Below are positions 1 to 14,594 of a DNA stretch of 64,000 bases, piece after piece. The notes under the pieces were generated by a model. The model made no database searches, was not told the origin of the DNA, and saw only the letters and a program-made list of their open reading frames with translations. How positions within the stretch are numbered: position 1 is the stretch's first letter; every line of letters begins with the position of its first letter. Both the position numbers and the translations under genes were made by a program. Source of the stretch: Prauserella cavernicola (lineage in GTDB: Bacteria; Actinomycetota; Actinomycetes; Mycobacteriales; Pseudonocardiaceae); the NCBI RefSeq assembly GCF_016595675.1, contig NZ_JAENJH010000013.1, positions 1-64,000 on the forward strand, given 5' to 3'.

Positions 1-129
1 GCGACGGTGCGTCAGCACAAGGCCATCGTGGATGCCATCGCCGAGCGTGATCCTGATGCCGCCGAGGACGCGATCGTCAAGCACCTGACCTATCTGCGCA
101 AGCACCTCGCCGCACACAACCAACGCTGA
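1..129 (+). CDS. GntR-family regulator, C-terminal end (partial)
   Basis: An open frame enters from the left edge and ends with TGA after 42 residues. The residues (HKAIVDAIAERDPDAAEDAI, then a helix with KHLTYLRKHL) match the last two helices of an FCD ligand-binding domain, where the usual pattern is HRAILDAI..RD...A...M..HL. FCD regulators of the FadR/VanR type control genes for organic-acid catabolism. This one reads straight towards the symporter and CoA-ester operon, so it is the likely local repressor. That role is inferred from position; the DNA-binding half lies outside the window. Confidence 0.7.
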   Translation, partial: ATVRQHKAIVDAIAERDPDAAEDAIVKHLTYLRKHLAAHNQR

Positions 130-218
130 CCTGCGGTAACCCCAGCCCGTCGTGCCTCGCGCGGCGGGCTTCGAGTGCTGCGCGGAGCCGGTCAGGGGTC
201 GGTGTGTCTTTTAAATGT

Positions 219-253
219 TGGACCTTGAACAAGTGGACCTTCTGTCCTACGGT
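219..253 (+). promoter_or_regulatory. Promoter and candidate GntR operator before the symporter operon
   Basis: TTGAAC (225-230) and TACGGT (248-253) lie 17 bases apart and fit an actinobacterial housekeeping promoter. The -35 box sits inside the small palindrome CTTGAACAAG (224-233). The word GGACCTT occurs twice, at 220-226 and 235-241. A repressor bound here would block the -35 box. The adjoining FCD-GntR regulator is the obvious candidate. This is read by eye only. Confidence 0.4.
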
Positions 254-315
254 TGCCCCCATCGCAAAGACGCGTCGTCCCGGGCGCATGGGCGACCTGA
301 CCAGGAGTGAGCACC

Positions 316-1653
316 ATGGCTAATCAGCCCCCGGCCCCTCCGGCGTCGATCCGGAAGATCGCATTCGCGAGCTTCATCGGCACCGTGATCGAGTTCTTCG
401 ACTTCTTCATCTTCGGTACCGCGGCGGCCCTGATCTTCAACAAGATCTTCTTCCCGGCGCTCGACCCGCTCGCCGGCACGCTCGCCTCGTTCGCCACCTT
501 CGGCGTCGCCTTTGCCGCCCGCCCGCTCGGCGGCGTGCTGTTCGGCCACTTCGGCGACCGGCTGGGGCGCAAGACGATGCTCGTGCTGAGCCTGGTGCTC
601 ATGGGCGTGGGAACCGCGATGGTCGGCCTGCTCCCGACGTATGCGCAGATCGGCATCTGGGCGCCGCTGCTGCTGGTGCTCTCCCGGCTGCTGCAGGGTG
701 TGGCGATCGGCGGTGAGTGGAGCGGCGCCGTGCTGATGGCCGTCGAGCACGCCCCGCCCGGCAAGCGCGCGTTCTACGGCAGCTGGCCGCAGTGCGGCGT
801 TCCCGCGGGTCTGGTCCTCGCCACGGCGGCGTTCTTCCTGGTGGAGCAGCTGCCGGAGGAAGCGATGATGACCTGGGGCTGGCGCATCCCGTTCCTCGCC
901 AGCGTGGTGCTCGTGCTGCTCGGCCTCTACATCCGCATGAAGATCTCGGAGTCCCCGGCGTTCAAGTCCGTGCAGGACAAGGGGGAGCAGTCGAAGTTCC
1001 CCGCCATCGAGGTGCTGCGCACGTCGTGGAAGGCCGTGCTCATCGCGGTGTTCTCCATGGCGGCGGCCAACATCCCCTTCTACATGGCCACGGTCTTCGC
1101 GCTGAGCTACGGCTCGCAGCACGACGGCGTCACCAGGGACACGGTGCTGCTGGCGGTCTGCATCGCCTCGTTCGTCCAGATCTTCACGATCCCCGCCACG
1201 GCGATGCTCGCCGACCACTACGGGCGCAGGCCGGTGCTGCTGGCCGGGTGCGTGGTGACGGCGCTCATGGGCTTTCCGTTCTTCTGGTTGCTGGACACGG
1301 GAAGTACGCTCGGCATCGTGGCCGCGATGGTGATCGCGCTGCCGATCGCGCACTCGCTGACGTACTCCACGCTCGCGAGCTTCCTGCCCGAATTGTTCGA
1401 GACCCGCCTGCGCTACAGCGGATCCGCGATCGGCTACCAGGTCGGCGGCATGCTCATGAGCGGTCCGGTGCCCTTCATCTCCGCCGCGTTGTTCTCGTGG
1501 GCCGGCAGCCCGTGGCCGCTGTCGCTCTACATCGTCCTCGGCGGGGTGCTGACGTTCGTCGCGGTCTACGTCGCGAAGGAGTCCTACCGGGACGACATCG
1601 ACGACGCCAGCCGCGAGCCGGGCGCGTCCGAGCGGGAGTCCGCTTCCGCCTGA
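316..1653 (+). CDS. MFS transporter, metabolite:H+ symporter (MHS) type
   Basis: A 445-residue membrane protein with about twelve hydrophobic segments. It carries the MFS loop signature GHFGDRLGRKTMLV between TM2 and TM3 and a second DHYGRRPVL copy in the C-terminal half. The opening (IRKIAFASFIGTVIEFFDFFIFGTAAAL) is characteristic of the MHS subfamily, which includes ShiA (shikimate), ProP and citrate or ketoglutarate carriers. An in-frame GTG at 307 would sit directly on the AGGAG (303-307), whereas ATG 316 is eight bases beyond it, so I start at 316. It heads the CoA-ester operon and probably imports that operon's substrate acid. Uptake of an alicyclic acid would fit the family, but the substrate is an inference. 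Confidence 0.9.
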   Translation: MANQPPAPPASIRKIAFASFIGTVIEFFDFFIFGTAAALIFNKIFFPALDPLAGTLASFATFGVAFAARPLGGVLFGHFGDRLGRKTMLVLSLVLMGVGTAMVGLLPTYAQIGIWAPLLLVLSRLLQGVAIGGEWSGAVLMAVEHAPPGKRAFYGSWPQCGVPAGLVLATAAFFLVEQLPEEAMMTWGWRIPFLASVVLVLLGLYIRMKISESPAFKSVQDKGEQSKFPAIEVLRTSWKAVLIAVFSMAAANIPFYMATVFALSYGSQHDGVTRDTVLLAVCIASFVQIFTIPATAMLADHYGRRPVLLAGCVVTALMGFPFFWLLDTGSTLGIVAAMVIALPIAHSLTYSTLASFLPELFETRLRYSGSAIGYQVGGMLMSGPVPFISAALFSWAGSPWPLSLYIVLGGVLTFVAVYVAKESYRDDIDDASREPGASERESASA

Positions 1654-1658
1654 GCACC

Positions 1659-1687
1659 TTGACGCGAAGACTAATGTCCAACAATAT
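1659..1687 (+). promoter_or_regulatory. Possible internal promoter before the CoA-transferase gene
   Basis: TTGACG (1659-1664) is followed after 17 bases by CAATAT (1682-1687), in the 46-base gap behind the symporter gene. The -35 is good and the -10 is weak. Initiation six to seven bases after the -10 would fall at about 1693-1694, right on an in-frame GTG at 1694. Either a leaderless GTG start or the SD-led ATG at 1700 could therefore be used. Confidence 0.3.
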
Positions 1688-1699
1688 GAGGACGTGGTA

Positions 1700-2941
1700 A
1701 TGAACGACCAGGATGAGCAGGCGCCCGCCGGTGGGCCGCTCGCGGGACTGAAGGTCATCGACATGACGACCTCCTACGCAGGCCCGACGGCGTCGATGTA
1801 CCTCGCCGACCTGGGCGCGGACGTGATCAAGGTCGAGCGGCCGGGCGCCGGTGACGACGCCCGGTCGTGGGGTCCGCCGTTCGTGCAGGACGCCTCCGCG
1901 TGGTTCGCCTCGGCGAACCGCAACAAGCGCTCGGTCGTGATCAACCTGCGGGACCCGAAGGGGCTCGAGACGCTGCGCAGACTCATCGGCTCGGCGGACG
2001 TGTTCATGGAGAACCTCAACCCCGGCAAGCTCGAGTCGCTCGGCATCGACCACCGCACGGTGCGGGCCGAGTTCCCGAGGCTCATCTACTGCGCGATGTC
2101 GGGCTTCGGCCTCGACGGGCCCGACCACGCGCTGCCCGGCTACGACCTCGCCGCGCAGGCCCGCTCGGGGATCATGTCCGTGACGGGCGCGAGGGGCGGC
2201 TCGCCGCAGCGCGTGTCGTCGGCGCTGTCCGACGTGGTCACGGGCATGTGCGCGGCGCTCGCGGTGAGCGCCGCCGTGGTGCGGCAGCGCGAGCACGGCG
2301 AGGGCGAGCTCATCGACGTGTCGCTGCTGGACTCCGATCTGGCCGTGATGGCGCCGCGCATCGCCTCGTACCTGGCAGGCGAGCGCGAGCCCGCACCCAG
2401 CGGCGGCACCGACTCGGTGCTCGCCGTGTACCAGTCGTTTCCCACCGCCGACCGGGATCTCGCGATCGCGATCGGCAACGACCCGATGTGGCGGCGGTTC
2501 TGCGACGTCATCGGACTGCCGGAGCTCGGCGCCGATCCCGACCTCGCCGACAACGCGGGCCGGCGCGAGCACCGGGAACGGCTCGTTACCGCGGTCACCG
2601 CCACACTGACCGAGCGCCCGGCCGCCGAGTGGCAGAAGATCTTCGGTGAGGCCGGAATCCCCTGCTCGCTCGTCCAGCGACTGTCCGAAGTGGTCGCCGA
2701 CCCGCAGGTGGTGGCCAGGGGAGCGCTGCTTCCCGTGCCGGGAACGGAGGGCGCGATGCACAGCGTGCACAGCCCGTTCCGCTTCGCGTCCATGCCGGAG
2801 CCACGCAACGTGCGCTTTCCCGCACTGGGCGCGCACACGAGGGAGGTGCTGGGCGAGTGCGGACTCACCGGCACCGACATCGACGAGTTGCTGGCCGGTG
2901 GGGCCGTGCAAGATGGGACCGAGGTGAGTGTCGGTGAGTGA
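1700..2941 (+). CDS. Class III (CaiB/BaiF) CoA-transferase
   Basis: A 413-residue protein of the formyl-CoA transferase/CaiB family. It has the N-terminal LAGLKVIDMTTSYAGPTASM nucleotide-fold opening, GADVIKVERPGAGDDAR, and the PGYDLAAQA segment. A following Asp near residue 178 (ALSDVVTG) aligns with the catalytic Asp of the family. PGYD, rather than GHD, separates it from the racemase branch seen later in this operon. The family moves CoA between carboxylic acids, so it probably activates the imported acid or recycles CoA from a product. ATG 1700 follows GAGGA (1688-1692) at good spacing; GTG 1694 is the alternative. The stop overlaps the next gene. Confidence 0.85.
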   Translation: MNDQDEQAPAGGPLAGLKVIDMTTSYAGPTASMYLADLGADVIKVERPGAGDDARSWGPPFVQDASAWFASANRNKRSVVINLRDPKGLETLRRLIGSADVFMENLNPGKLESLGIDHRTVRAEFPRLIYCAMSGFGLDGPDHALPGYDLAAQARSGIMSVTGARGGSPQRVSSALSDVVTGMCAALAVSAAVVRQREHGEGELIDVSLLDSDLAVMAPRIASYLAGEREPAPSGGTDSVLAVYQSFPTADRDLAIAIGNDPMWRRFCDVIGLPELGADPDLADNAGRREHRERLVTAVTATLTERPAAEWQKIFGEAGIPCSLVQRLSEVVADPQVVARGALLPVPGTEGAMHSVHSPFRFASMPEPRNVRFPALGAHTREVLGECGLTGTDIDELLAGGAVQDGTEVSVGE

Positions 2942-3719
2942 CGACTTCGTGGTCGTGGAGCGCGACGGCGCGGTGGCGACCGTGCGTATCGACCGCCCCG
3001 CCGTGCACAACGCGCTCAACGCGCGGCTGGTGCGGCGGCTGGGCGCCGAGATCGGTGCGCTCGCCGCCGACGGCACCAGGGCGATCGTGCTGACGGGCAC
3101 GGGGGAGAAGGCGTTCAGCGCGGGCGCCGACCTCGACGAGCTCGCCACGCTCGACGCCGAGACGGCACACACCGTGATGCGCGCCGGACAGGCCGTGTTC
3201 CGCGAGATCGAACGGAGCCCCGTCCCGGTCATCGCCGCGGTCAACGGACTCGCGCTCGGCGGCGGGTTCGAGCTGGTGCTCGCCTGCTCGTTCGCCGTGG
3301 TCTCGCACAAGGCCTCGCTCGGACTGCCCGAGGCGGGACTGGGGCTGATCCCCGGCTACGGCGGCACACAGCGGCTCGCCCGCGTCGCCGGTCCCGCGGT
3401 GGCCAGGCACGTGATGCTCACGGGCAGCCGGATCGACGCCGAACGCGCCTACCAGCTCGGCCTCGCCGTGCTGCCGCCCACCGAGCCGGCTGAGCTGCTG
3501 CCCACCGCGCTGGAGCTGGCCGGGACCATCGCGACCAAGGGCCCGCGGGCCTGCCGCGCGATCCTCGACGTCGTCGACCGCGGCCTGGACGTGCCGCTCG
3601 ACGCGGGCCTGGCGCTGGAGACCGGGCTCGCCGCGCTCGCCATCGGCGGCGGCGAGTCGAGCGAGGGCGTCGCAGCGTTCAAGGACAAACGCGCACCGAG
3701 GTTCGGGGAGCGGGCATGA
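2934..3719 (+). CDS. Enoyl-CoA hydratase (crotonase family)
   Basis: A 261-residue crotonase. The oxyanion-hole stretches are AFSAGADLDE (about 60-69) and ALGGGFELVLAC (107-118). Both catalytic glutamates of true hydratases are present, E113 in GGFEL and E133 in LPEAGLGLIPGYGG. It should add water to a 2-enoyl-CoA. GTG 2934 is nine bases after GAGG (2921-2924); the alternative GTG 2928 is too close to it. It overlaps the CoA-transferase gene by eight bases and the dehydrogenase by four, so translation is probably coupled. Confidence 0.88.
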   Translation: MSDDFVVVERDGAVATVRIDRPAVHNALNARLVRRLGAEIGALAADGTRAIVLTGTGEKAFSAGADLDELATLDAETAHTVMRAGQAVFREIERSPVPVIAAVNGLALGGGFELVLACSFAVVSHKASLGLPEAGLGLIPGYGGTQRLARVAGPAVARHVMLTGSRIDAERAYQLGLAVLPPTEPAELLPTALELAGTIATKGPRACRAILDVVDRGLDVPLDAGLALETGLAALAIGGGESSEGVAAFKDKRAPRFGERA

Positions 3720-4939
3720 ACACCGCACCACTCGACATCGACTCCGACCCGTTGGCCTACCTCGCCCACCACGAGAGCCTCGACGAGTCCGCCGCCGACG
3801 CGCTGCTCGACGAGCGCGAATTGCGCGTGCGGGCGCAGGTCCGTGACGTCGTGGCCCACGAGGTCGCGCCGCGAGCGGCCACAGTGGACCGGACGCACGA
3901 GTTCGTGCACGAGAGCTACCAGGCGCTCGCCTCGGCCGGGCTCGCCGGGCTCGTCTTTCCCGAGCGGCTCGGCGGCACCGGGGACACCAACGTCGCCTAC
4001 GCAGCGGCGATGGAGGAGATCACCGCGGGCTGCGCGGCGACGAGCCTCGTCTACATGACCCAGATGCACGCCGCCTACCCGATCCTGATCGCCGGGTCGG
4101 AGGAGCTGGCCCAGCACTACATCCCCGGCCTGCTCGACGGGAGCTCCTACGGCGCGCTCGGCATCACCGAGCCGGGCGCCGGCAGTGACGTGGCCGGGCT
4201 GAGCTCGGTCGCCGCACCCGCCGATGACGGCTATGCGCTGCGCGGCTCGAAGACGTTCATCACCACGGGCGATCGCGCCGACGTCATCATCTGCTTCGCC
4301 AGCGTCGACCGGTCGCTGGGCCGCAAGGGCATCACGGCGTTCGTGCTCAACGGCGCCTGGGACGGTCTGGAGCGGGGCAGGCCGTTCGACAAGCTCGGCA
4401 TGCATGGCTCCAGCACGGCGGAGCTGTTCTTCGACGGCGTGCGCATCCCTGCCGGCCACCGGCTCGGCGACGAGGGCGGCGGCTGGCAGGTCGTGATGAA
4501 CTCCGTCATCAAGTCCCGCATCAGCGCGGCGGCCCAGGGCATCGGCCTGGCGCGCGCGGCGTACGGGCGCGCGCTGCGGGCGCTGACTCGCGTCCACGGC
4601 CCCACACTGCCCGCCGAGGCGGCGTTCGCGCTGGCCACACTGCGCGGCCGGATCCTGCAGGGCAGGCTGCTGCTGTTCGGTGTCGCCCGCGAGGTCGACC
4701 GCTCCAGCGCACCCGACGCCGGTCAGATCGGCATCATGAAGCAGACCTGCACCGACCTCGGCTTCGACGCCGCGCTCGAGGCGATGCGCATCCTCGGTCC
4801 GTACGGCGACCTCGCCGACCTCGGGGTCGAGCGCTGCCTGCGCGACGCGAAGGTCACCCAGATCTACGACGGCACCAACGAGGTGCAGCGGTTGCTGATC
4901 GCGCGCGACACCGCACGGAAGGTAGGAGAGCAGCAATGA
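3716..4939 (+). CDS. Acyl-CoA dehydrogenase with Asp at the usual catalytic Glu
   Basis: A full-length (407-residue) FAD-dependent acyl-CoA dehydrogenase. It has the ALGITEPGAGSDVAGL flavin-binding stretch in the middle domain, TGDRADVIICFAS, and a C-terminal helical domain that ends IYDGTNEVQRLLIAR. In many family members this motif reads IYEGT, with Glu as the base that removes the alpha proton. Here it is Asp (about D385). It should introduce the 2,3 double bond for the neighbouring hydratases. ATGA overlaps join it to the genes on both sides. A shorter second dehydrogenase lies at 8266-9231 and could be its partner subunit. Confidence 0.88.
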   Translation: MNTAPLDIDSDPLAYLAHHESLDESAADALLDERELRVRAQVRDVVAHEVAPRAATVDRTHEFVHESYQALASAGLAGLVFPERLGGTGDTNVAYAAAMEEITAGCAATSLVYMTQMHAAYPILIAGSEELAQHYIPGLLDGSSYGALGITEPGAGSDVAGLSSVAAPADDGYALRGSKTFITTGDRADVIICFASVDRSLGRKGITAFVLNGAWDGLERGRPFDKLGMHGSSTAELFFDGVRIPAGHRLGDEGGGWQVVMNSVIKSRISAAAQGIGLARAAYGRALRALTRVHGPTLPAEAAFALATLRGRILQGRLLLFGVAREVDRSSAPDAGQIGIMKQTCTDLGFDAALEAMRILGPYGDLADLGVERCLRDAKVTQIYDGTNEVQRLLIARDTARKVGEQQ

Positions 4940-5688
4940 CCTCGTTGCAGGGCACAGTCGCCATCGTCACCGGAGCGGGCAGAGGGCTCGGCAGGGCGAT
5001 GGCCGAGGCGCTGGCCGAGGCCGGCGCGAAGGTGGCCGTCGCGGCCCGCACGGCGGAGCAGCTGGACGAGTTCGTCGCCGAGCAACAGCGGGCGGGACGC
5101 GAGGCGCTGGCGTGCCCCACCGACATCACCGACCCCGAGGCCGTGGAGCGCATGGTCGCGGCGACCGTGGAGCGCTTCGGCCGCGTCGACATCCTGGTGA
5201 ACAACTCGGGCATCGTCGCCACCACGGCGCTGCTCGACCAGGAGCCGGACGAGTGGGACCGCGTGATCGCCACCAACCTGCGCGGCGTGTATCTCGCGAC
5301 GCGCGCGGTGGGCAGGCACCTGGTGGCCCAGAAGTCCGGCAAGGTCGTCAACATCGCGTCCAACTTCGCGCTGCAGGGCGTGTCCCACCACGCGGCCTAC
5401 TCGGCGTCCAAGGCCGGGGTGATCGCCTTCACCAGGTCGATGGCGATCGAATGGGCCCGCCACGGTGTGCAGGTCAACGCCATCGCGCCCGGCTACTTCG
5501 CCACCGACCTCAACTCAGGGCTGCGCGCCGACGGCGACGCGACCGACAAGGTGCTGCGCGCGATCCCCGCGCGGCGCATGGGAGAACCCGCCGAGATCAA
5601 GCCCTGGCTGCTGTTGCTCGCGGGCCCGGAGTCCGACTTCATGACCGGCGAGCACATCGTGCTCGACGGCGGCCAGACCGTCCGATAA
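4936..5688 (+). CDS. Short-chain dehydrogenase/reductase (FabG-like)
   Basis: A classical SDR of 250 residues. It has the cofactor loop TGAGRGLG at 12-19, the NNSG variant of NNAG at 89-92, and the catalytic set S142, Y155, K159 (YSASK). The end (DFMTGEHIVLDGGQTVR) is typical of the FabG fold. It probably interconverts a ring or chain hydroxyl and ketone in a CoA ester using NAD(P). In the anaerobic cyclohexanecarboxylate pathway the 2-hydroxyacyl-CoA oxidising enzyme BadH is also an SDR, and this would be the counterpart. That assignment is an inference from context. It is joined to the dehydrogenase gene by an ATGA overlap. Confidence 0.85.
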   Translation: MTSLQGTVAIVTGAGRGLGRAMAEALAEAGAKVAVAARTAEQLDEFVAEQQRAGREALACPTDITDPEAVERMVAATVERFGRVDILVNNSGIVATTALLDQEPDEWDRVIATNLRGVYLATRAVGRHLVAQKSGKVVNIASNFALQGVSHHAAYSASKAGVIAFTRSMAIEWARHGVQVNAIAPGYFATDLNSGLRADGDATDKVLRAIPARRMGEPAEIKPWLLLLAGPESDFMTGEHIVLDGGQTVR

Positions 5689-5738
5689 GGACACCGCGGA
5701 GACTGCGGACACCGCGGACAGAGAACGGAGACAACGAC

Positions 5739-6617
5739 GTGACTTCGCACGACCGCACCGTCGCGGTGCTCGGCGCCGGGACCATGGGATCCGGCATCGC
5801 CACCGTGGCCGTCAGGGCCGGTTACCGGACCCTCATCCACGACCTCGACGACGAGCGCGTCGCTCGCGGCGTGCAGACCGTGCGCGGCTTCCTCGCCAAG
5901 AGCGCCAAGCTCGGCAAGCTCACCGAGGACGAGGCGGCCGCCGCCTCGGCGCGCATCGAGGGCACCACCGCGCTGACCGATCTCGCGGGCGCGGGCGTGG
6001 TGATCGAGGCGATCTTCGAGAACCTGGACGCCAAGCGGGAGCTCTTCCGTGAGCTCGACGGGATCGTCGGCAAGGACACCCTCTTCCACACCAACACCTC
6101 CACGCTGTCGGTCACCGGCATCGCGGCGGGCTCGTCGCTGCCCGAGCGGGTCGTGGGCACCCACTACTGCAACCCCGCGCCGCTGATGAAGCTCGTCGAG
6201 GTGGCCGGCGGCAGGCACACCGCGAGCTGGGCCCACCGGGCGACGCTCGAGTTCCTCGCCTCGGTCGGCAAGACCACGGTGGTCACCAAGGACCGGCCCG
6301 GCTTCATCGTCAACCGCTTCCTCATCCCGTGGGAGAACAGCTGCATCCAGGCGCTGGAGAACGGGCTGGGCACCAAGGAGTCGATCGACGCCGCCGTCAC
6401 CGGCGCACTCGGCCACCCCATGGGCCCGTTCAAGCTCCTCGACGTGGTCGGCATGGACATCCACCAGCAGGTGGCCACACGGCTCTACGAGCAGCTGCGC
6501 GACCCGAAGTTCTTCCCGCCGCCGATGGTCGACCGCATGGTCTCGGCGGGCGATCTCGGCCGCAAGACCGGGCGCGGCTTCTACACCTACGACGACAACC
6601 GCCTGTTCGGTTCCTAA
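5739..6617 (+). CDS. 3-hydroxyacyl-CoA dehydrogenase (first of a tandem pair)
   Basis: A 292-residue member of the HAD/FadB2 family. It has the NAD-binding AVLGAGTMGSGIA at the N-terminus, HTNTSTLSV, the catalytic His (about H142) in THYCNPAPLMKLVEV, and KDRPGFIVNR before the C-terminal helical domain. It oxidises a (3S)-hydroxyacyl-CoA to the 3-keto ester with NAD. The open frame extends far upstream, but GGAG (5727-5730) eight bases before GTG 5739 and the family length fix the start. The next gene is a clear paralogue, so the pathway may oxidise two different hydroxyacyl intermediates. Confidence 0.88.
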   Translation: MTSHDRTVAVLGAGTMGSGIATVAVRAGYRTLIHDLDDERVARGVQTVRGFLAKSAKLGKLTEDEAAAASARIEGTTALTDLAGAGVVIEAIFENLDAKRELFRELDGIVGKDTLFHTNTSTLSVTGIAAGSSLPERVVGTHYCNPAPLMKLVEVAGGRHTASWAHRATLEFLASVGKTTVVTKDRPGFIVNRFLIPWENSCIQALENGLGTKESIDAAVTGALGHPMGPFKLLDVVGMDIHQQVATRLYEQLRDPKFFPPPMVDRMVSAGDLGRKTGRGFYTYDDNRLFGS

Positions 6618-6626
6618 GGAGTGCTC

Positions 6627-7493
6627 ATGTCCGACATCCACAACGTCGCGGTACTGGGCTTCGGCACGATGGGCGCCGGGATCGTGCAGGTCGTGGCCGC
6701 CTCCGGCCGCCCGGTCACCGTGCTGGATACCGACCAGGACCGCGCCGACGCCGGCCTGGCCCGGCTGCGTGCGTTCCTCGACGGCGGCGTGCGGCGCGGC
6801 AAGCTCACCGAGGCCGGCCGCGACGAGCTGCTCGACCGCGTCCGCCCGGTCACCGACCTCGCCGCGCTCGCGAGCTGTGACCTGGTGATCGAGGCCGTCA
6901 CCGAACGCGCCGACGTCAAGCGGGACCTGCTCGCCAGGGTCGCCGCCGTCGTCGCCGGCGACGCGCTGATCGTCACCAACACCTCCGCACTGTCGGTGAC
7001 CGACCTCGCGGGCTCGGTGCCGAACCCCGGCCGCGTCGCCGGGCTGCACTTCTTCAATCCCGCGCCGCTGATGAAGGTGGTCGAGGTCGTCCGCGCGCTG
7101 CAGAGCGAGCCGGGCGTGGCGGAGCGGCTCAGCGCGTTCGTCGAGGACCTCGGCAAGGACCCCGTGGTGGTCAAGGACCGCCCCGGTTTCCTCGTCAACC
7201 ACCTGCTCCTGCCGTATCTCAACGACGTGATCGCCGAGTACGACGCGGAGCTGGCCAGCGCCGAGGACATCGACACGGCGATGCGGCTCGGCCTCGGCTA
7301 CAAGCTCGGCCCGCTGGAGCTGCTCGACCTGATCGGGCTCGACGTCCACGAGCACGCCACGCGCAGCGCCTACGACGCGACGCTCGACCCGCGCTTCGCG
7401 CCGCCGCCGCTGCTGCGGCAGATGGTGGCCGCGGGCTACCACGGCGACAAGAACGGCCAGGGATTCCGCACAGAGAAGGGGAACGCTCAGTGA
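6627..7493 (+). CDS. 3-hydroxyacyl-CoA dehydrogenase (second of a tandem pair)
   Basis: A 288-residue protein with the same plan as its upstream neighbour: AVLGFGTMGAGIVQ for NAD, TNTSALSVTDLA, the catalytic His in LHFFNPAPLMKVVEVV, and KDRPGFLVNHLLLPYLND. The HFFNPAPLM form is the more canonical of the two. ATG 6627 follows AAGGAG (6616-6621) at five bases; GTG 6621 overlaps that site and is unlikely. The stop overlaps the next start (GTGA). The two copies differ along most of their length, so the duplication is old rather than recent. Confidence 0.88.
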   Translation: MSDIHNVAVLGFGTMGAGIVQVVAASGRPVTVLDTDQDRADAGLARLRAFLDGGVRRGKLTEAGRDELLDRVRPVTDLAALASCDLVIEAVTERADVKRDLLARVAAVVAGDALIVTNTSALSVTDLAGSVPNPGRVAGLHFFNPAPLMKVVEVVRALQSEPGVAERLSAFVEDLGKDPVVVKDRPGFLVNHLLLPYLNDVIAEYDAELASAEDIDTAMRLGLGYKLGPLELLDLIGLDVHEHATRSAYDATLDPRFAPPPLLRQMVAAGYHGDKNGQGFRTEKGNAQ

Positions 7494-8269
7494 CGAGCTA
7501 CACCGACATCACCGTCGAGCGTGACGGCCCGGTGGCCACGATCGCGATCAACCGGCCGGAGGCCGGCAACAAGTTCCGCCACGAGACGTGCCTGGAGCTC
7601 TCCGACGCGCTGCAGCGGTTCCGGCTCGACCCGGCGCTGCGGGCCGCCGTGCTCACCGGCACCGGCGACAAGTTCTTCTGCATCGGCGGCGAGCACGACG
7701 AGACCACCTCGCTCGACCAGTCGCAGGTCCTGCCGATCATCGACGTGTACCAGGCGATCGACACCATCCCGAAGCCCATCGTGGCCGCGGTGAACGGGTT
7801 CGCCGTCGGCGGCGGCAACGTGCTGCACACGGTCTGCGACCTCACGATCGCCGCCGAGAACGCCGTCTTCCGGCAGGTCGGCCCGATGGTCGGCAGCTTC
7901 GACGCCGGTTACGGCAGCTGGTACCTCGAGGACACGATCGGCCGCAAGCGCGCCAAGGAGATGTGGTATCTCAACCGCAAGTACTCCGCCACGGAGGCGC
8001 TCGGCATGGGACTGGTCAACGAGGTCGTGCCCGCCGAGGAGCTGCGGACGCGCGCCGCTGAGGTCGCGCGCACCCTGACCACCCGCAGCCCGCTGGCGCT
8101 CGGCGGGCTCAAGGCCGCGTTCTCCGGCAAGCACAACGGGGTCTCCGGCCAGGCCAGGATGGCGCATGACCAGTTGCTCAGCGTCTACCTCACCACGCAG
8201 GAGGCGCACGAGGTGAGCGCGTCGTTCGGTGAGCGTCGCGAGCCCGATCCCGACAGGTTCTGGAAGTGA
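7490..8269 (+). CDS. MenB/BadI-like crotonase, possible ring-opening CoA hydrolase
   Basis: This 259-residue crotonase belongs to the branch of MenB (naphthoyl-CoA synthase) and BadI (2-ketocyclohexanecarboxyl-CoA hydrolase), not to the hydratases. Evidence is FCIGGEHDE in place of the usual F.AG.D, GGGNVLHTVCDLTIAAENA (108-125), VGSFDAGYGSWYLE (134-147) with the Ser136-Phe-Asp138 set of that branch, and the C-terminal FGERREPDPDRFWK tail. The hydratase Glu pair is missing. menB usually lies with menaquinone genes. Here it sits among acyl-CoA oxidation genes that lack a thiolase, so hydrolytic C-C cleavage of a cyclic 2-keto acyl-CoA is the better guess. The specificity is not proven. Confidence 0.72.
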   Translation: MTSYTDITVERDGPVATIAINRPEAGNKFRHETCLELSDALQRFRLDPALRAAVLTGTGDKFFCIGGEHDETTSLDQSQVLPIIDVYQAIDTIPKPIVAAVNGFAVGGGNVLHTVCDLTIAAENAVFRQVGPMVGSFDAGYGSWYLEDTIGRKRAKEMWYLNRKYSATEALGMGLVNEVVPAEELRTRAAEVARTLTTRSPLALGGLKAAFSGKHNGVSGQARMAHDQLLSVYLTTQEAHEVSASFGERREPDPDRFWK

Positions 8270-9231
8270 GCCGCAACGCGCCCGACTTCGCCGGGGAGCA
8301 GGCCGACCTGGTGGCCATGCTCGACGGCGTGCTGTCCGATGTGGACTCCGCGCGCGACGACGAGCGGCCCGCCGAGGTGGCGGCGCTGCGTTCCCAGCTC
8401 GCCGGGCTGGGAGTGTGGACGCTCGGCGTCGCCGAGCGGCTCGGCGGCGGGGGAGCGGACGTGGCGCTCGCGGCCACGGTGTTCGCCCGGCTCGGCCGCG
8501 CGCACGCCGCGCTCGGCTGGGCGGCCGTGCAGGCCCACGCCGCGGCGGAGCTGCTGGGCGAGCATCCGGAGGTGCGCGAGCGCGTGCACGCCGGGGACGT
8601 CGCCGTGGCGGTGACCGAGAACGGGCGCGTCGACGCCGCGGGTGAGACGCCGCACGTCATCGTGCTCTCCGACGACGGTGCCGTGCTGTACTCGCCCGAG
8701 TCACTGAGCTACCGGCCGCTGCGCCGCACCGGGCTCGACGGCGCGCTGACCAGGTTCGCCGAACCGGCGGGCGAGGGCGTGGCACTGAGCGGGGACGTTG
8801 CCGCGGCCAGGGTGCGATTGCGGCTCGGCGCCGCGGCCGTGGCCGCCGGGATCGCCGACGCCGCGGCCGAGGCGGCACTGGACTACAGCGCCGGGCGCAC
8901 GCAGTTCGGCGGAGCGCTCACCGCGTTGCCCACGGTCAGGGAGTCGCTGTTCGCCTCGGCGAGCACGGCCGCCGGACTGCTGCGCCAGCTCCAGCAGGAC
9001 GCCCCCGCCACGCCGTGGCAGGCCGCCGCCGTGCTCGACACGGCCTGCGAGTCGGCGATCGACGCCGCCGCGCGGGCGCTGCAGTCCCACGGTGGCTACG
9101 GCTACCTCACCGAGTACCCGGTCGAGCGCCTGCTGCGCGACGCGGTGTCGCTGCGCGCGGCGTGCGACGTCGCCGCCGCGCGCCGCTCGGGCGCACTCGA
9201 CCTCGCGAGTTCCGCGAAAGGATCAGCATGA
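8266..9231 (+). CDS. Short acyl-CoA dehydrogenase-like subunit
   Basis: A 321-residue protein recognisable by its C-terminal half: DYSAGRTQFGGALTALPTVRE, then ALQSHGGYGYLTEYPVERLLRD, the usual FAD/CoA contact region of acyl-CoA dehydrogenases. The N-terminal and middle domains are shortened, and the middle beta domain with its T(E)PxAGSD signature is not recognisable. No IYEGT-type base motif is visible. Actinobacteria use heteromeric dehydrogenases, for example in steroid side-chain breakdown, in which one subunit lacks the base. Pairing with the enzyme at 3716-4939 is plausible but inferred. GTGA and ATGA overlaps link it to both neighbours. Confidence 0.7.
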   Translation: MSRNAPDFAGEQADLVAMLDGVLSDVDSARDDERPAEVAALRSQLAGLGVWTLGVAERLGGGGADVALAATVFARLGRAHAALGWAAVQAHAAAELLGEHPEVRERVHAGDVAVAVTENGRVDAAGETPHVIVLSDDGAVLYSPESLSYRPLRRTGLDGALTRFAEPAGEGVALSGDVAAARVRLRLGAAAVAAGIADAAAEAALDYSAGRTQFGGALTALPTVRESLFASASTAAGLLRQLQQDAPATPWQAAAVLDTACESAIDAAARALQSHGGYGYLTEYPVERLLRDAVSLRAACDVAAARRSGALDLASSAKGSA

Positions 9232-10883
9232 GTTCCTCCCTCGCCGAGCTGCTCGGCCACCAGCACACCCCGCTCACCGACGCCGACGCCGACGCGTTTC
9301 GCGCGACGGGGATGTGGCAGAACCGCACCGTCCGCTCCGTGCTGTCCGAGGTCGCCGCCGAGCACCCCGACCGCACCGCGCTGGTCGGGTACCGCACGAA
9401 CGGTCCCGTGGTGCGCCAGACCTACCGGGAGTTCGACGCGGCCGCCCACCACGCGGCGTCGGCGCTCGCGAGCCTCGGTGTCGGCAAGGGCGACGCGGTG
9501 GTGCTGATGCTGCCGAACTGGATCGAGTACGCCGCGCTGGTGTACGGCATCAACGAGCTCGGCGCGATCTACGCGGGTGTTCCCGTGGCCTACGGCGAGC
9601 GCCAGGCCGCGGCGATCCTGCGCCGGAGCAAGGCGAAGGTGCTGGTGATCCCGCGCTCGTGGCGCAGCACCGGCCACCTGGAGCTCTCGCGGACCCTGCG
9701 CGCGGAGCTGCCCGAGCTGGAGACCGTGGTCGTGCTCGACGACGACCCCGAGGGGCTGCGCGAGGGTGAGGTGCTGTGGTCGTCGCTGGCCGATGTGCCC
9801 GTGCGCGAGTTCCCGCGGCCGGATCCCGGTGAGCTCTGCTACCTGGGCTTCACGTCGGGTACGACGGGCGAGCCGAAGGGCGCGATGCACACGCACGACA
9901 CGCTGCTCTACGGGGCGATGGCGATCGCCGAGCACCTGGGGCCGAAAGCCTACGGTGACCCGATGGTGCAGCTCGTCGCCTCGCCCGCCGGGCACCACAC
10001 GGGCTTCATGTGGGGTGTGCTGTTCACCGTGCACCTCGCGGGCACCGGCGTGCACGTCGATCGCTGGGACCCGGTCTGGGGTGTCGACGTGATCCGCCAG
10101 GAGCGGATCACCGCGTTCTTCGGCGCACCGACGTTCCTGCAGGACATGATGCGCACGGACCTGGTCGACGATCCCGACTGTCCGCTGGAGTGCCTGGTGA
10201 TCGCGGGCTCGTCGGTGCCGAGGACGCTGCCCGCCAGGGCGGGCACGGCGTTCGGCGCCTACATCGCCTCGGCATGGGGTCTCACCGAGTGCGGCATCAT
10301 GAGCTCGGCCACGCCGAAGGAGTCCGACGACGTCCAGCTCACCGACGGCTCGATCTTCGCGGGCTCGGCGGTGCGGGTGGTGGACGCCGAGGGCAACGAC
10401 GTCCCGGCCGGCGTCACGGGTGATCTGCTGATGAAGGGGCCGGGCGTGGTGCTCGGCTACTACGACCGTCCTGATGCGACGGACGAAGCGTTCCTGCCGG
10501 GGCTGTGGTTCAAGACCGGCGACACGGCGAGCGTCGACGAGCACGGCTGGCTGTCGTTGCGCGGGCGGAGCAAGGACATCATCATCCGCGGCGGTGAGAA
10601 CATCCCGGTGACCGACGTGGAGACCGTGCTGTTCGACCACCCCGACGTGCTCAACGCGGCGGTGGTGGCCTACCCGGACGAGCGTCTCGGCGAGCGCGCG
10701 TGCGCCGTGCTGGCGCTGCGGCCCGGCGCGACGCTGAACCTGGAGTCGCTGTGCGAGTACCTGCTCGCCCAGGGCCTGTCGAAGCACTACCTGCCGGAAC
10801 GGCTCGTGCTGCTCGACGAGCTGCCGGTGACCCAGAGCGGCAAGATCCAGAAGTTCAAGCTGCGCCAGCTGGTCGCGCGCTGA
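9228..10883 (+). CDS. Acyl-CoA ligase (AMP-forming), cyclohexanecarboxylate-CoA ligase-like
   Basis: A 551-residue adenylate-forming enzyme. The P-loop-like signature is LGFTSGTTGEPKGAMHTH. WGLTECG is the A5 motif, GLWFKTGD the A7 motif, GRSKDIIIRGGENI the hinge region, and TQSGKIQKFKLR carries the C-terminal catalytic Lys. It converts a carboxylic acid to its CoA ester with ATP. General resemblance is to medium-chain and alicyclic acid ligases such as AliA. Because a class III CoA-transferase is also present, the operon has two ways to activate acids. The start at 9228 gives an ATGA overlap; the longer upstream frame is a shadow of the preceding gene. Confidence 0.85.
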   Translation: MSSSLAELLGHQHTPLTDADADAFRATGMWQNRTVRSVLSEVAAEHPDRTALVGYRTNGPVVRQTYREFDAAAHHAASALASLGVGKGDAVVLMLPNWIEYAALVYGINELGAIYAGVPVAYGERQAAAILRRSKAKVLVIPRSWRSTGHLELSRTLRAELPELETVVVLDDDPEGLREGEVLWSSLADVPVREFPRPDPGELCYLGFTSGTTGEPKGAMHTHDTLLYGAMAIAEHLGPKAYGDPMVQLVASPAGHHTGFMWGVLFTVHLAGTGVHVDRWDPVWGVDVIRQERITAFFGAPTFLQDMMRTDLVDDPDCPLECLVIAGSSVPRTLPARAGTAFGAYIASAWGLTECGIMSSATPKESDDVQLTDGSIFAGSAVRVVDAEGNDVPAGVTGDLLMKGPGVVLGYYDRPDATDEAFLPGLWFKTGDTASVDEHGWLSLRGRSKDIIIRGGENIPVTDVETVLFDHPDVLNAAVVAYPDERLGERACAVLALRPGATLNLESLCEYLLAQGLSKHYLPERLVLLDELPVTQSGKIQKFKLRQLVAR

Positions 10884-10893
10884 AAGGCAGGAC

Positions 10894-12036
10894 ATGACCT
10901 CCACCGTTGACCAGCGGCCGCTCGCGGGCGTGCGCGTACTCGACCTCTCGACGCTGCTGCCGGGGCCGCTCGGCACCCTGATGCTGGCCGAAGCCGGCGC
11001 CGACGTGATCAAGATCGAACGTCCCGGTGCGGGCGACGAGATGCGCTCGTACCAGCCGAGGCTGGGCGACACGAGCGCCAACTACGCCGTGCTCAACCGC
11101 GGCAAACGGGCCTACGCCGCGAACCTCAAGGACCCGGCCGACCGCGACCGCGTGCTGGCGCTGGCCGCCGAGGCCGACATCGTGATGGAGCAGTTCCGGC
11201 CGGGCGTGGCCGACCGGCTCGGGCTCGGCTACGAGCAGGTCCGCGCGGTGAACCCCGGTGTCGTGTACTGCTCGATCACCGGCTACGGCCAGCACGGGCC
11301 CCAGGCGGCGAAGGCGGGTCACGACCTGAACTACCTGGCGGAGACCGGGCTGCTCGGCGTGGTCACCGACCGCGAGGGCTCGCCGCAGCTGCCGGTGACG
11401 GTGCTCGCCGACATCGCGGGCGGCACCTACCCGGCGGTGGTCAACATCCTGCTCGCGCTGCGCCGGCGCGACATCACGGGCGAGGGCTGCCTGCTCGACG
11501 TCTCGATGGCGCACAACCTCCAGGTGCTCGCCTACGGCTACATCGCGGCCCACCAGGGCAGCGGCCGGTGGCCGAGGCCGAGCGCCGAGCAGCTCACCGG
11601 AGGCAGTCCGCGCTACCACATCTACTCCACATCGGACGGACGTCATGTCGCGGTGGCCGCGCTGGAGCAGAAGTTCTGGGAACGGCTCGCGCGGCTGATC
11701 GAACTGCCCGAGACCTACATCGCCGACGAGGGCAGGGAAGCCGACGTGATCGCGGCGGTCGCCGAGCGCATCGGCGCCCACTCCGCCGAGCACTGGAGCA
11801 CCGTGCTCGACGGCGAGGACGTCTGCACCGTCGTGGTGGCGACGTTCGACGAGGCCGTCGAGGCCGGGCTGCTGGAGCCCGACCGGCCCGAGCGGATCAC
11901 CGGGCCGGGCGTCGATGTCGGCACCCTGCGCAGTCCCGTCGACCCGGCGCTGCGCGGTGAGCCCGGCGGCGTCGCCTACCCCGGACTGGAGCCGCTGCCC
12001 GCCGACACCGGGCGTCTCTGGTCCACCCCGGCCTAG
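10894..12036 (+). CDS. Alpha-methylacyl-CoA racemase-like protein (CaiB/BaiF fold)
   Basis: A 380-residue protein of the CaiB/BaiF superfamily that carries the racemase fingerprint rather than the transferase one. AGHDLNYLAETGLLG contributes H143 (followed by D144), and VLADIAGG contributes D173. The 30-residue spacing equals that of the His/Asp proton-transfer pair in mycobacterial MCR. The stretch LTGGSPRYHIYSTSDGRHVAVAALEQKFWERL is also typical of the racemases. The enzyme would interconvert (2R)- and (2S)-2-methylacyl-CoA so that the S form can enter dehydrogenation. That points to a methyl-branched substrate or intermediate. It starts ten bases after the ligase stop. Confidence 0.8.
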   Translation: MTSTVDQRPLAGVRVLDLSTLLPGPLGTLMLAEAGADVIKIERPGAGDEMRSYQPRLGDTSANYAVLNRGKRAYAANLKDPADRDRVLALAAEADIVMEQFRPGVADRLGLGYEQVRAVNPGVVYCSITGYGQHGPQAAKAGHDLNYLAETGLLGVVTDREGSPQLPVTVLADIAGGTYPAVVNILLALRRRDITGEGCLLDVSMAHNLQVLAYGYIAAHQGSGRWPRPSAEQLTGGSPRYHIYSTSDGRHVAVAALEQKFWERLARLIELPETYIADEGREADVIAAVAERIGAHSAEHWSTVLDGEDVCTVVVATFDEAVEAGLLEPDRPERITGPGVDVGTLRSPVDPALRGEPGGVAYPGLEPLPADTGRLWSTPA

Positions 12037-12049
12037 AAAGGAACCATTC

Positions 12050-13033
12050 GTGCGCGCAGTCCAGGTCCAGGAGTTCGGCCCGCCCAGCGGTCTCGTCGTC
12101 GCCGAGGTGCCCGACCCGGAGCCCGGTCCCGGCGAGGTCGTGATCGCGGTCGCGGCGGCCGGCGTCAACTTCCCCGACATCCTCGTGGTGGAGGGCACCT
12201 ACCAGAACCTGCCGGAGCGGCCGTTCAGCCCGGGCAAAGAGGCGGCGGGCACCGTGCTCGCCGTCGGCGAGGGCGTCGAGCGGCTGGCCGTGGGGCAGCG
12301 GGTGCTCACCCTCGTCGAGCACGGCGCCTTCACCGAGCAGCTCCTCGTGCCTGAGGAACTGGTGGTGGCGCTGCCGGACGAGATCACGTTCGAACAGGCC
12401 GCCGCGTTCGGTCTGGTCTACAGCACCGCCTACTTCGGACTCGTGCGCAGGGCGCGGCTGAGCGAGGGGGAGTGGGTGCTCGTGACCGGCGCGGGCGGCG
12501 GTGTCGGCTCGGCGGGCGTGCAACTCGCGAAAGCGCTGGGCGCCACCGTGATCGCGCTCGCCCGCGACGAGGAACGCGCTCGGCTGGCGCGCGAGCAGGG
12601 CGCCGACGTGGCACTGACCTCCGACGCCTCGACACTGCGCGACGACCTGCTGCGCGTCACCGGCGGCCACGGCGTGGACGTGACGCTGGAGATGGTGGGC
12701 GGTGACGTGCTCACCCAGGTCGTGCGCGCCACGGCCTGGGAGGGCCGCGTGGTGATCGTCGGCTTCGCCTCCGGAGGGCAGAACCCGATCAAGCCCGGTC
12801 ACCTGCTGGTCAAGAACATCTCCGTGGTCGGCCTGCAGAGCAGCGACTACCGCGACCGCACCCCGGAACTGATGCGCTCGACGATGGAGGAGATGCTCCA
12901 GCTCTTCGTCGAGGGCAGGATCACGATCCCGGTGGACAGCACGTTCCCGCTCGGCAAGACCGGCGACGCGCTGCAGGCCGTGAAGGACGGCGGCATCAAG
13001 GGCAAGGTCGTGATCGTGCCGGAGCGCGCATGA
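12050..13033 (+). CDS. Zinc-independent quinone oxidoreductase (MDR superfamily)
   Basis: A 327-residue medium-chain dehydrogenase/reductase. It has a GroES-like N-terminal domain (NFPDILVVEGTYQNLPERPFSPGKEAAGTV) and a Rossmann domain with VTGAGGGVGSAGVQLAKALGA. The zinc ligands of alcohol dehydrogenases are absent, which places it with NADPH:quinone or enoyl reductases. It may reduce a conjugated enoyl or quinone intermediate. GTG 12050 follows AAAGGAA at about seven bases and gives the family length; the longer frame runs back into the racemase gene. It overlaps the MaoC gene by ATGA. Confidence 0.85.
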   Translation: MRAVQVQEFGPPSGLVVAEVPDPEPGPGEVVIAVAAAGVNFPDILVVEGTYQNLPERPFSPGKEAAGTVLAVGEGVERLAVGQRVLTLVEHGAFTEQLLVPEELVVALPDEITFEQAAAFGLVYSTAYFGLVRRARLSEGEWVLVTGAGGGVGSAGVQLAKALGATVIALARDEERARLAREQGADVALTSDASTLRDDLLRVTGGHGVDVTLEMVGGDVLTQVVRATAWEGRVVIVGFASGGQNPIKPGHLLVKNISVVGLQSSDYRDRTPELMRSTMEEMLQLFVEGRITIPVDSTFPLGKTGDALQAVKDGGIKGKVVIVPERA

Positions 13034-13473
13034 GCCTGACCTACGACGACCTGCGCGTCGGGCTTACGTTCGACAGCCCCTCGCGGACGATCACGGAGTC
13101 CGACGTGGTGTCGTTCGCGGGCCTGACCGGCGACTTCTTCCCGCTGCACACCAGCGAGGAGTACGCGAAGGGCACCGAGTACGGCACCCGTGTCGCCCAC
13201 GGCCTGCTCGGGCTGAGCTACGCCCACGGCCTGATGTGGGCGCGCACGGGCGCCCTCGACGACTGCATCGTGGCGTTCCTCGGCATCGGCGACTGGCGGT
13301 TCACCGGCGCGATCCATCTCGGCGACACCATCCATGTGCGGTACTCGGTGGCGGAACTGCGGCCGAGCCGCTCGCGGCGGGACCGCGCGGTCGTGGTGTT
13401 CGCGGTGGAGGTGCTCAACCAGCGCGACGAGGTGGTGCAGCAGGGCACGAAGTCGCTGCTGCTGTCGCGCTGA
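13030..13473 (+). CDS. MaoC-type (R)-specific enoyl-CoA hydratase
   Basis: A 147-residue single hot-dog protein with the hydratase-2 motif FAGLTGDFFPLHTSEEYAKGTEYGTRVAHG, in which the Asp and His of GD...LH form the active site. It hydrates 2-enoyl-CoA to the (3R)-hydroxy ester, whereas the crotonase upstream gives the (3S) form. It is the last gene of the tightly packed operon, followed by a small GC hairpin. Confidence 0.85.
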   Translation: MSLTYDDLRVGLTFDSPSRTITESDVVSFAGLTGDFFPLHTSEEYAKGTEYGTRVAHGLLGLSYAHGLMWARTGALDDCIVAFLGIGDWRFTGAIHLGDTIHVRYSVAELRPSRSRRDRAVVVFAVEVLNQRDEVVQQGTKSLLLSR

Positions 13474-13571: not shown

Positions 13572-14594
13572 ATGACCGACACCCCGAGGCCGCTCACCGC
13601 GGCGAGCACCGTCGGCGACTGGCTGGCGCGTCCCGAGGGCGCCGCCGCGTTGCGTGAGCTGCTCGCCGCCAGCGGGTTCGACGAGACCGTGCTCGCTCCC
13701 GTGAGCAACCTGCCCCTGCAACAGCTGGTGGACCTGAGCCAGGGCCGCCTGCCGCAGAGCGTCGTCGACGACCTCGTGGCCTCCGTCAACGGCGGGGTCG
13801 TCCCCGCCGACGACGCCGAACGGGCCGAGGGCTGGCGCGAGCGCGTGGTGGCGGGCCGGTTCGAGGGCAGGACGATCGTGGTGACCGGCGCCGCGTCCGG
13901 CATCGGCAGGGCCGTCGCCTCGCGAGTGGTGCGCGAGGGCGGCCGGGTGATCGCCGCCGACCTGGCCGAGGACCGGCTGACGGAGCTGGTCGCCGGGCTG
14001 GGCGAGGACTCCGTGGTGCCCATCGCCGCCGACATCGTGCGCGCCGAGGACGTCGAGCGCATCGTCGCGGCGGCGGGCCCGCGCATCGACGGACTGGCCA
14101 ACGTCGCCGGGATCGTCGACGACTTCTCGCCGCTGCACGAGACCTCCGACGAGGTCTGGCGGCGCGTGTTCGCCGTCAACGTCGACGGGACGTTCCGGCT
14201 CACCCGCGCCGTGCTGCCCGTGATGCTCGCCGGTGGCGGCGGTTCGATCGTCAACGTCGCGTCGGAGGCCGCCCTGCGGGGCAACGCCGCGGGTGTGGCC
14301 TACACCGCCTCGAAGCACGCCGTCGTCGGCATCACGCGCAACACCGCGTTCATGTACGGCCCGCGGGGCATCCGTGTCAATGCCGTCGCTCCCGGCGGCG
14401 TGGCCACCGGACTGGGCGCCGACGCCAGGACCTCGGAGTTCGGCAGGGACCGCACCGGCGACTTCCTGCGCCTGATCCCGGCGATCGCCACCGCCGAGCA
14501 GATCGCCGCCTCGATCACGTTCCTGCTCAGCGACGACGGCGTGAACATCTCCGGCGCCGTGCTGCCCTCCGACGGCGGCTGGTCGGTGCAGTGA
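13572..14594 (+). CDS. Short-chain dehydrogenase with N-terminal helical extension
   Basis: A 340-residue protein. Residues from about 98 onward form a classical SDR: TIVVTGAASGIGRAVA for the cofactor, LANVAGIVDD in the NNAG position, and a Ser...YTASK catalytic set, ending with AVLPSDGGWSVQ. The first 95 or so residues (TVGDWLARPEGAAALRELL...LPLQQLVDLSQGRLP) look like a small helical domain that ordinary SDRs lack. It probably oxidises or reduces an alcohol/ketone pair. Its neighbours, a Baeyer-Villiger enzyme and a propeller lactonase candidate, suggest it supplies the ketone. The AGGAGG site is well placed before ATG 13572. Confidence 0.82.
   Translation: MTDTPRPLTAASTVGDWLARPEGAAALRELLAASGFDETVLAPVSNLPLQQLVDLSQGRLPQSVVDDLVASVNGGVVPADDAERAEGWRERVVAGRFEGRTIVVTGAASGIGRAVASRVVREGGRVIAADLAEDRLTELVAGLGEDSVVPIAADIVRAEDVERIVAAAGPRIDGLANVAGIVDDFSPLHETSDEVWRRVFAVNVDGTFRLTRAVLPVMLAGGGGSIVNVASEAALRGNAAGVAYTASKHAVVGITRNTAFMYGPRGIRVNAVAPGGVATGLGADARTSEFGRDRTGDFLRLIPAIATAEQIAASITFLLSDDGVNISGAVLPSDGGWSVQ

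Follow-up and report, generated by a model that had tools for sequence, protein, structure and literature searches.

A conserved acyl-CoA operon of Prauserella cavernicola with a distinct BadI-sister crotonase, proposed to serve the breakdown of substituted alicyclic acids

The closest described relatives of the operon reported here are the bad-ali genes of R. palustris and Aromatoleum sp. CIB and the chcpca genes of Rhodococcus aetherivorans BCP1, with which it has in common a ligase, a dehydrogenase, a hydratase, a short-chain dehydrogenase (SDR) and a crotonase of the MenB branch (in those clusters BadI, the 2-ketocyclohexanecarboxyl-CoA hydrolase, which yields pimelyl-CoA); an aerobic actinobacterial form for alicyclic acids has already been described (PMC5906575, PMC9795900). 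The mrc cluster of Castellaniella defragrans combines an SDR and a hydratase with BadI-type hydrolytic opening of a substituted cyclohexane-carboxyl-coenzyme A (CoA) (PMC4109377), and EchA20, a MenB-related actinobacterial ring hydrolase, opens a bicyclic steroid remnant by a reverse Dieckmann reaction and works together with IpdAB, a second ring opener (PMC5380842). Both reactions are of the kind that we propose here, EchA20 being likened by its published description. We analysed a window, by which we mean the whole stretch of 64,000 nucleotides at the start of contig NZ_JAENJH010000013.1 (C4) of the soil actinobacterium Prauserella cavernicola (genome 7.2 Mb); base 1 of the window is base 1 of the contig. 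Between positions 316 and 13473 it carries an operon whose open reading frames, order and packed acyl-CoA character, as first read, were confirmed by the list of open reading frames and by family scans (NCBIfam, Pfam and PDB sequence comparison). The original prediction had seen in it an alicyclic-acid pathway matching no described operon, a claim that fails insofar as bad-ali/chcpca is published but holds insofar as that cluster is a different, paralogous one. On balance, the sequences lead us to regard the operon as probably one for importing a substituted alicyclic carboxylic acid, itself probably oxygenated or branched, and for degrading it in CoA-dependent steps with BadI-type hydrolytic opening of the ring.

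The central enzyme is the crotonase encoded at 7490-8269. In a maximum-likelihood tree of 75 crotonase rows, it and 50 relatives form one clade on a long stem (support 100/100), whose sister comprises annotated badI products and actinobacterial BadI (97/88), so that the protein falls outside the canonical BadI clade. Jointly, the two clades are separate from MenB-type sequences (98/97), although the outgroup branches are long and the exact root is therefore less sure than the clades. The phylogeny proposed as a check in the original prediction thus upheld its placement of the protein on the BadI rather than the MenB side, and alignment upheld its description of a Ser-Phe-Asp loop without the hydratase Glu pair: by comparison with the enoyl-CoA hydratase ECH1 (Table 1), the two Glu positions, in GGGNVL and RQVGP, are Val111 and Gly131. 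Gln129, Gly131, Ser136-Phe137-Asp138 and Trp159 are invariant in a 48-row alignment of the family and Tyr233 is nearly so; the crotonase hence has the Ser-x-Asp, Gln, Gly and Tyr that serve in catalysis in the BadI/MenB branch. A structure model (mean predicted local distance difference test score 91), which served for fold only, matches MenB structures with a template modelling score of about 0.90. The top PDB matches are MenB as well, and the two proteins share the fold as well as the positions of Ser-Phe-Asp, Gln/Gly and Tyr, as would be expected if the protein were a MenB, that is, a biosynthetic Dieckmann cyclase. This identification is largely refuted and we give it hardly any credence: besides the tree, the protein passes none of three MenB models (270, 252 and 196 bits against cut-offs of 380, 343 and 378), the A-loop of MenB is shortened, the neighbours are catabolic, and the genome has a separate true MenB (415 bits) on contig C22, adjoining MenE and MenA, both above their cut-offs. 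The situation named beforehand as fatal, this protein falling inside true MenB with the rest of the men genes absent elsewhere in the genome, is therefore not what we found. A second crotonase of the MenB/BadI branch lies on contig C66 near 288909 (L103:1492-2256); its best model is badI (176 bits, far under the cut-off), and GSSPVTG replaces GSFDAGY, so that the Asp of Ser-Phe-Asp is missing.

Compared with bad-ali, the crotonase has the catalytic Ser, Asp, Gln and Gly of BadI but is only 42-46% identical to it and belongs to a separate clade; in contrast, the mrc hydrolase MrcE is 88% identical to canonical BadI (PMC4109377). Identities are low also for the acyl-CoA dehydrogenase ACAD1 (27% to AliB) and the ligase LIG (38% to AliA of Salipiger), and the SDR that had been cast in the role of BadH is present, its role being putative at 34-36% identity to proteobacterial BadH. 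Class equivalents, rather than orthologues, of aliA, aliB, badH and badI (badK) were thus found. The operon further has two CaiB-fold proteins (CaiB1 and the racemase-like CaiB2), the oxidoreductase QOR, paired 3-hydroxyacyl-CoA dehydrogenases (HBD1 and HBD2) and an MHS importer, and its upstream regulator is of the GntR type (seen in Prauserella flavalba), whereas bad-ali has MarR/TetR regulators (PMC9795900). A canonical actinobacterial bad-ali locus (L142) runs BadI-AliB-BadH-AliA-thiolase-hydratase-HBD-ACAD, with a PcaF-like thiolase. A literature search of partial coverage found the bad-ali/chcpca clusters and no paper on a cluster of the window type.

Could the operon nevertheless be a second route for cyclohexanecarboxylate (or cyclopentanecarboxylate), assembled independently of bad-ali/chcpca but equivalent to it? 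The enzyme classes are alike, the crotonase is sister to BadI, and LIG is AliA-like: its best model is cyclohexanecarboxylate-CoA ligase (TIGR03208, 447 bits against a cut-off of 792), for which it is the best match of the genome by about 150 bits. The second-best model of ACAD1 is cyclohexane-1-carbonyl-CoA dehydrogenase. A profile search of the genome also returned no canonical BadI over the cut-off, so that the operon could fill that role. However, the canonical actinobacterial bad-ali is a different gene set (L142; PMC9795900), and a racemase would be pointless for unsubstituted cyclohexanecarboxylate, whose C1 is no stereocentre. Moreover, two proteobacterial plasmids, C. basilensis pRK1-1 and one of P. 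fungorum, each hold this operon type and a separate canonical badI cluster about 30 kb apart, presumably for different substrates, which makes it unlikely that the operon is just the known cyclohexanecarboxylate pathway; the co-occurrence argues against cyclohexanecarboxylate itself, which is at most a candidate substrate. We thus consider such an equivalent pathway rather unlikely. The badI cluster on these two plasmids has a 2,4-dienoyl-CoA reductase and resembles the monoterpene mrc cluster, of which this reductase is characteristic and which differs in this from the window operon (PMC4109377).

The proposed breakdown of a substituted ring acid draws on gene content, conservation, phylogeny, catalytic residues and an upstream motif as observations, from which we infer by homology the reactions, their order, the operator role and the substrate class. 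The MHS protein would import the acid and LIG would form its CoA ester; ACAD1, perhaps with the ACAD-like protein ACADc, would desaturate and ECH1 hydrate it. SDR1 or HBD1/HBD2 would oxidise the ring hydroxyl to give a 2-oxo-cycloalkane-carboxyl-CoA, to which the crotonase would add water in a BadI-like reverse Dieckmann reaction, yielding a dicarboxylic acid mono-CoA ester. CaiB1 may transfer CoA to a carboxylate or from one carboxylate to another, CaiB2 may determine the alpha-carbon configuration, and the chain would be beta-oxidised with a thiolase encoded elsewhere.

The individual enzymes add detail to this scheme. The earlier view of the transporter as an MHS, shikimate-carrier-like protein was confirmed (437 bits for TIGR00883), with the shikimate transporter as best equivalog, though under its cut-off (394 bits against 538). 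The closest solved relative of CaiB1 is succinate-HMG/glutarate CoA-transferase, and its catalytic Asp is retained in 69/69 homologues. In alignment, CaiB2 and 52 of 52 homologues keep GHDLNY and LAD as in alpha-methylacyl-CoA racemases, comprising the catalytic His/Asp motif and the second Asp, and CaiB2 is predicted to be a racemase-type enzyme rather than a transferase. With a substituted ring, both a racemase and a dicarboxylate-type CoA-transferase would have a sensible role. Moving CoA from one carboxylate of an alicyclic intermediate to another has a conceptual parallel in ThnP of anaerobic naphthalene degradation (PMC11659651), but ThnP belongs to family I and CaiB1, whose CoA transfer is putative, to family III. 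In ACAD1, Asp385 replaces the usual catalytic Glu (as in 42 of 42 copies from actinobacteria, whereas 29 of 29 from proteobacteria have Glu). ACADc accompanies most actinobacterial Asp-type ACAD1 proteins and gave no middle-domain match in the family scan; it is a possible partner subunit of ACAD1. On plasmid pP73A of Celeribacter indicus (L156:19054-20568), the two 3-hydroxyacyl-CoA dehydrogenases, separate in other clusters, are naturally fused, which suggests that the two proteins act as one unit. More tentatively, and with considerable doubt, it may be speculated that the operon represents a widespread route, not described before, for some commonly occurring alicyclic acid with a substituted ring; a third functional class of MenB-branch crotonase would open a ring that bears an additional substituent, in combination with dedicated epimerisation by CaiB2 and CoA relocation by CaiB1; as part of that joint reading, such alpha-carbon epimerisation and CoA relocation would occur in no known BadI route.

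Several observations weigh against ring opening of this kind. The crotonase scores 221 bits against the badI model TIGR03210, far below the cut-off of 467.6, which was passed in no searched actinobacterial genome (a probable bad-ali BadI, L118, reaches 309 bits). About ten of its residues (G26, F62, Y87, D91, R128, W144, E147, N162, H215 and H226) are private to the family and not found in BadI/MenB rows, and they could signal another reaction. In addition, minimal versions of the cluster lack the ligase, ACAD and SDR, showing that the core can serve other routes. These reduced cores, found on pROB02 of R. opacus B4 (L108:8130-15771), L029 and L039, consist of CaiB1, a hydratase, two HBDs and the crotonase and adjoin a glutaconate-CoA-transferase-like gene pair and an MR/MLE-family enolase; possibly, another upper pathway feeds the same core there. 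By annotation, such pairs resemble IpdAB, and with the precedent of EchA20 they favour an alternative in which the compound hydrolysed by the crotonase is a linear or bicyclic 3-oxoacyl-CoA and the operon carries out the lower part of the breakdown of some larger terpenoid or polycycle. One plasmid match lies in Celeribacter indicus P73, a polycyclic-aromatic degrader. Yet the window operon has its own importer and ligase and no IpdAB-like pair, and steroid or terpenoid upper-pathway genes were not found next to it, so that we regard this alternative as unlikely.

We then turn to the distribution of the cluster. A genome scan yielded 80 loci in Actinomycetota, Alpha- and Betaproteobacteria; the loci for trees and tables came from a peptide-pattern scan and are an uneven sample, in which the 41 actinobacterial loci with enough flank count as complete and identity thresholds were set by hand. 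HBD1 and HBD2 are each present in 40 of these 41, CaiB1 in 39, ECH1 in 38, ACAD1 and ACADc in 35 each, SDR1 in 32, LIG in 25, CaiB2 in 23, QOR in 15, MHS in 9 and MaoC in 5. The core is thus CaiB1-ECH1-HBD1-HBD2-crotonase (38-40/41), and proteobacteria have a matching set, their clusters encoding CaiB1, crotonase, ligase, hydratase, SDR, ACAD, HBD1, a 3HCDH C-terminal-domain protein, CaiB2 and QOR. Beside the latter clusters there is often a divergent sigma-54 activator; the only sensor match in these regulators, where there is one, is weak and to PAS. Since the crotonase occurs in only 13 of 200 genomes of the family of the window organism, the operon is accessory, and several copies are plasmid-borne. 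Neighbouring genes vary: DUF4286 genes lie near eight proteobacterial copies (L110:7904-10762, L050, L075, L046, L047, L070, L078 and L154), three of which also have a type II dehydroquinase-like gene nearby, MmgE/PrpD genes occur in several actinobacterial loci and MR/MLE-type enolases in three loci. These inconstant neighbours hint at an oxygenated ring substrate; across loci they give no single answer as to which.

The lack of a thiolase had been central to the original prediction. Within 316-13473 it was borne out, the nearest match on the contig lying about 85 kb along. As the contig starts at window base 1, the possibility of a thiolase just upstream, likewise named beforehand as fatal, was checked in P. 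flavalba, where about 17 kb on the upstream side of the operon and about 13 kb on its downstream side contain none. As a trait of the pathway, however, the absence is unstable: thiolases stand beside the operon in several relatives, and a same-strand thiolase is found within 8 kb in 7 of the 41 actinobacterial loci and anywhere in the locus in 13. For the thiolases within or beside the operon in Streptomyces, Aeromicrobium and Celeribacter, the top-scoring class is 3-oxoadipyl-CoA (PcaF-type) thiolase, in keeping with a dicarboxylic product; for the thiolases of Amycolatopsis jejuensis, R. opacus, Aminobacter and Ancylobacter it is acetyl-CoA acetyltransferase. The P. cavernicola genome itself has about 13 thiolase matches of full domain length (at least 135 bits), one of them 60% identical to the Streptomyces neighbour. 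Ring opening as such needs no thiolase in any BadI-type route, but the pathway does not avoid the thiolase step; the enzyme is supplied from elsewhere. The earlier interpretation therefore stands for the BadI-side crotonase and the separate MenB and falls for thiolase absence as a stable trait; its gene list was right in the classes, to which the racemase-type second CaiB-fold protein and the short ACADc are added as corrections.

A conserved block, TTAAATGTTGGACCTTGAACA, lies some 100 bp ahead of the MHS gene and is the only exact match in the genome. The exact motif precedes the operon in 13 more loci, which span several genera, and its core does so in Prauserella, Amycolatopsis, Actinomadura, Rhodococcus, Mycolicibacterium, Nocardia, Aeromicrobium and Streptomyces loci; in Blastococcus and P. 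rugosa loci it takes the form of a near-palindrome, AATGTCGGACATT. The GntR protein adjoining the operon is the likely, predicted binder of the GTTGGACCTTGAAC site. Its gene is cut by the contig start, and an 81%-identical GntR-family match sits at the corresponding place in P. flavalba; the Streptomyces homologue has an FCD domain. In A. jejuensis, two divergent motif copies (L004:18882-18980) lie in the divergent promoter between an MHS gene and a thiolase/ligase gene pair, which would tie the thiolase to the regulon of the operon.

Table 1. Features of the operon and its flanks (window coordinates)
Feature	Position	Strand	Remark
Operon	316..13473	+	13 genes, tight; overlaps short, gaps at most about 50 bp
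Regulator C-terminus, FadR/GntR-type (FCD)	1..129	+	truncated by contig start, last ~42 residues visible
Probable promoter/operator	211..260	+	TTAAATGTTGGACCTTGAACA, then TTGAAC, 17-nt spacer, TACGGT; from aligned upstream regions, operator role putative
MHS-family metabolite:H+ symporter	316..1653	+	shikimate-transporter-like
CaiB1, class III CoA-transferase	1703..2941	+	
ECH1, enoyl-CoA hydratase	2928..3719	+	both catalytic Glu present
ACAD1, acyl-CoA dehydrogenase	3716..4939	+	
SDR1, short-chain dehydrogenase	4936..5688	+	
HBD1, 3-hydroxyacyl-CoA dehydrogenase	5721..6617	+	
HBD2, second 3-hydroxyacyl-CoA dehydrogenase	6627..7493	+	
BadI/MenB-branch crotonase	7490..8269	+	proposed ring-opening acyl-CoA hydrolase, member of distinct clade
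ACADc, ACAD-like	8266..9231	+	321 residues
LIG, AMP-forming acyl-CoA ligase	9228..10883	+	AliA-like
CaiB2, alpha-methylacyl-CoA racemase-like	10894..12036	+	
QOR, PIG3-type NAD(P)H quinone/enoyl oxidoreductase	12050..13033	+	
MaoC-type hydratase	13030..13473	+	
SDR2, downstream SDR	13572..14594	+	98-bp gap before; operon membership uncertain

The aerobic breakdown of alicyclic acids, such as naphthenic and terpenoid acids, is poorly assigned to genes. Current models would label crotonases of the window type MenB or BadI, which calls for caution. Deeply conserved, equipped with a crotonase clade of its own and carried on plasmids as well, the cluster spans actinobacteria of soil, betaproteobacteria of fresh water and alphaproteobacteria of the sea; this suggests a substrate that is widely encountered among bacteria but has no named enzyme family.

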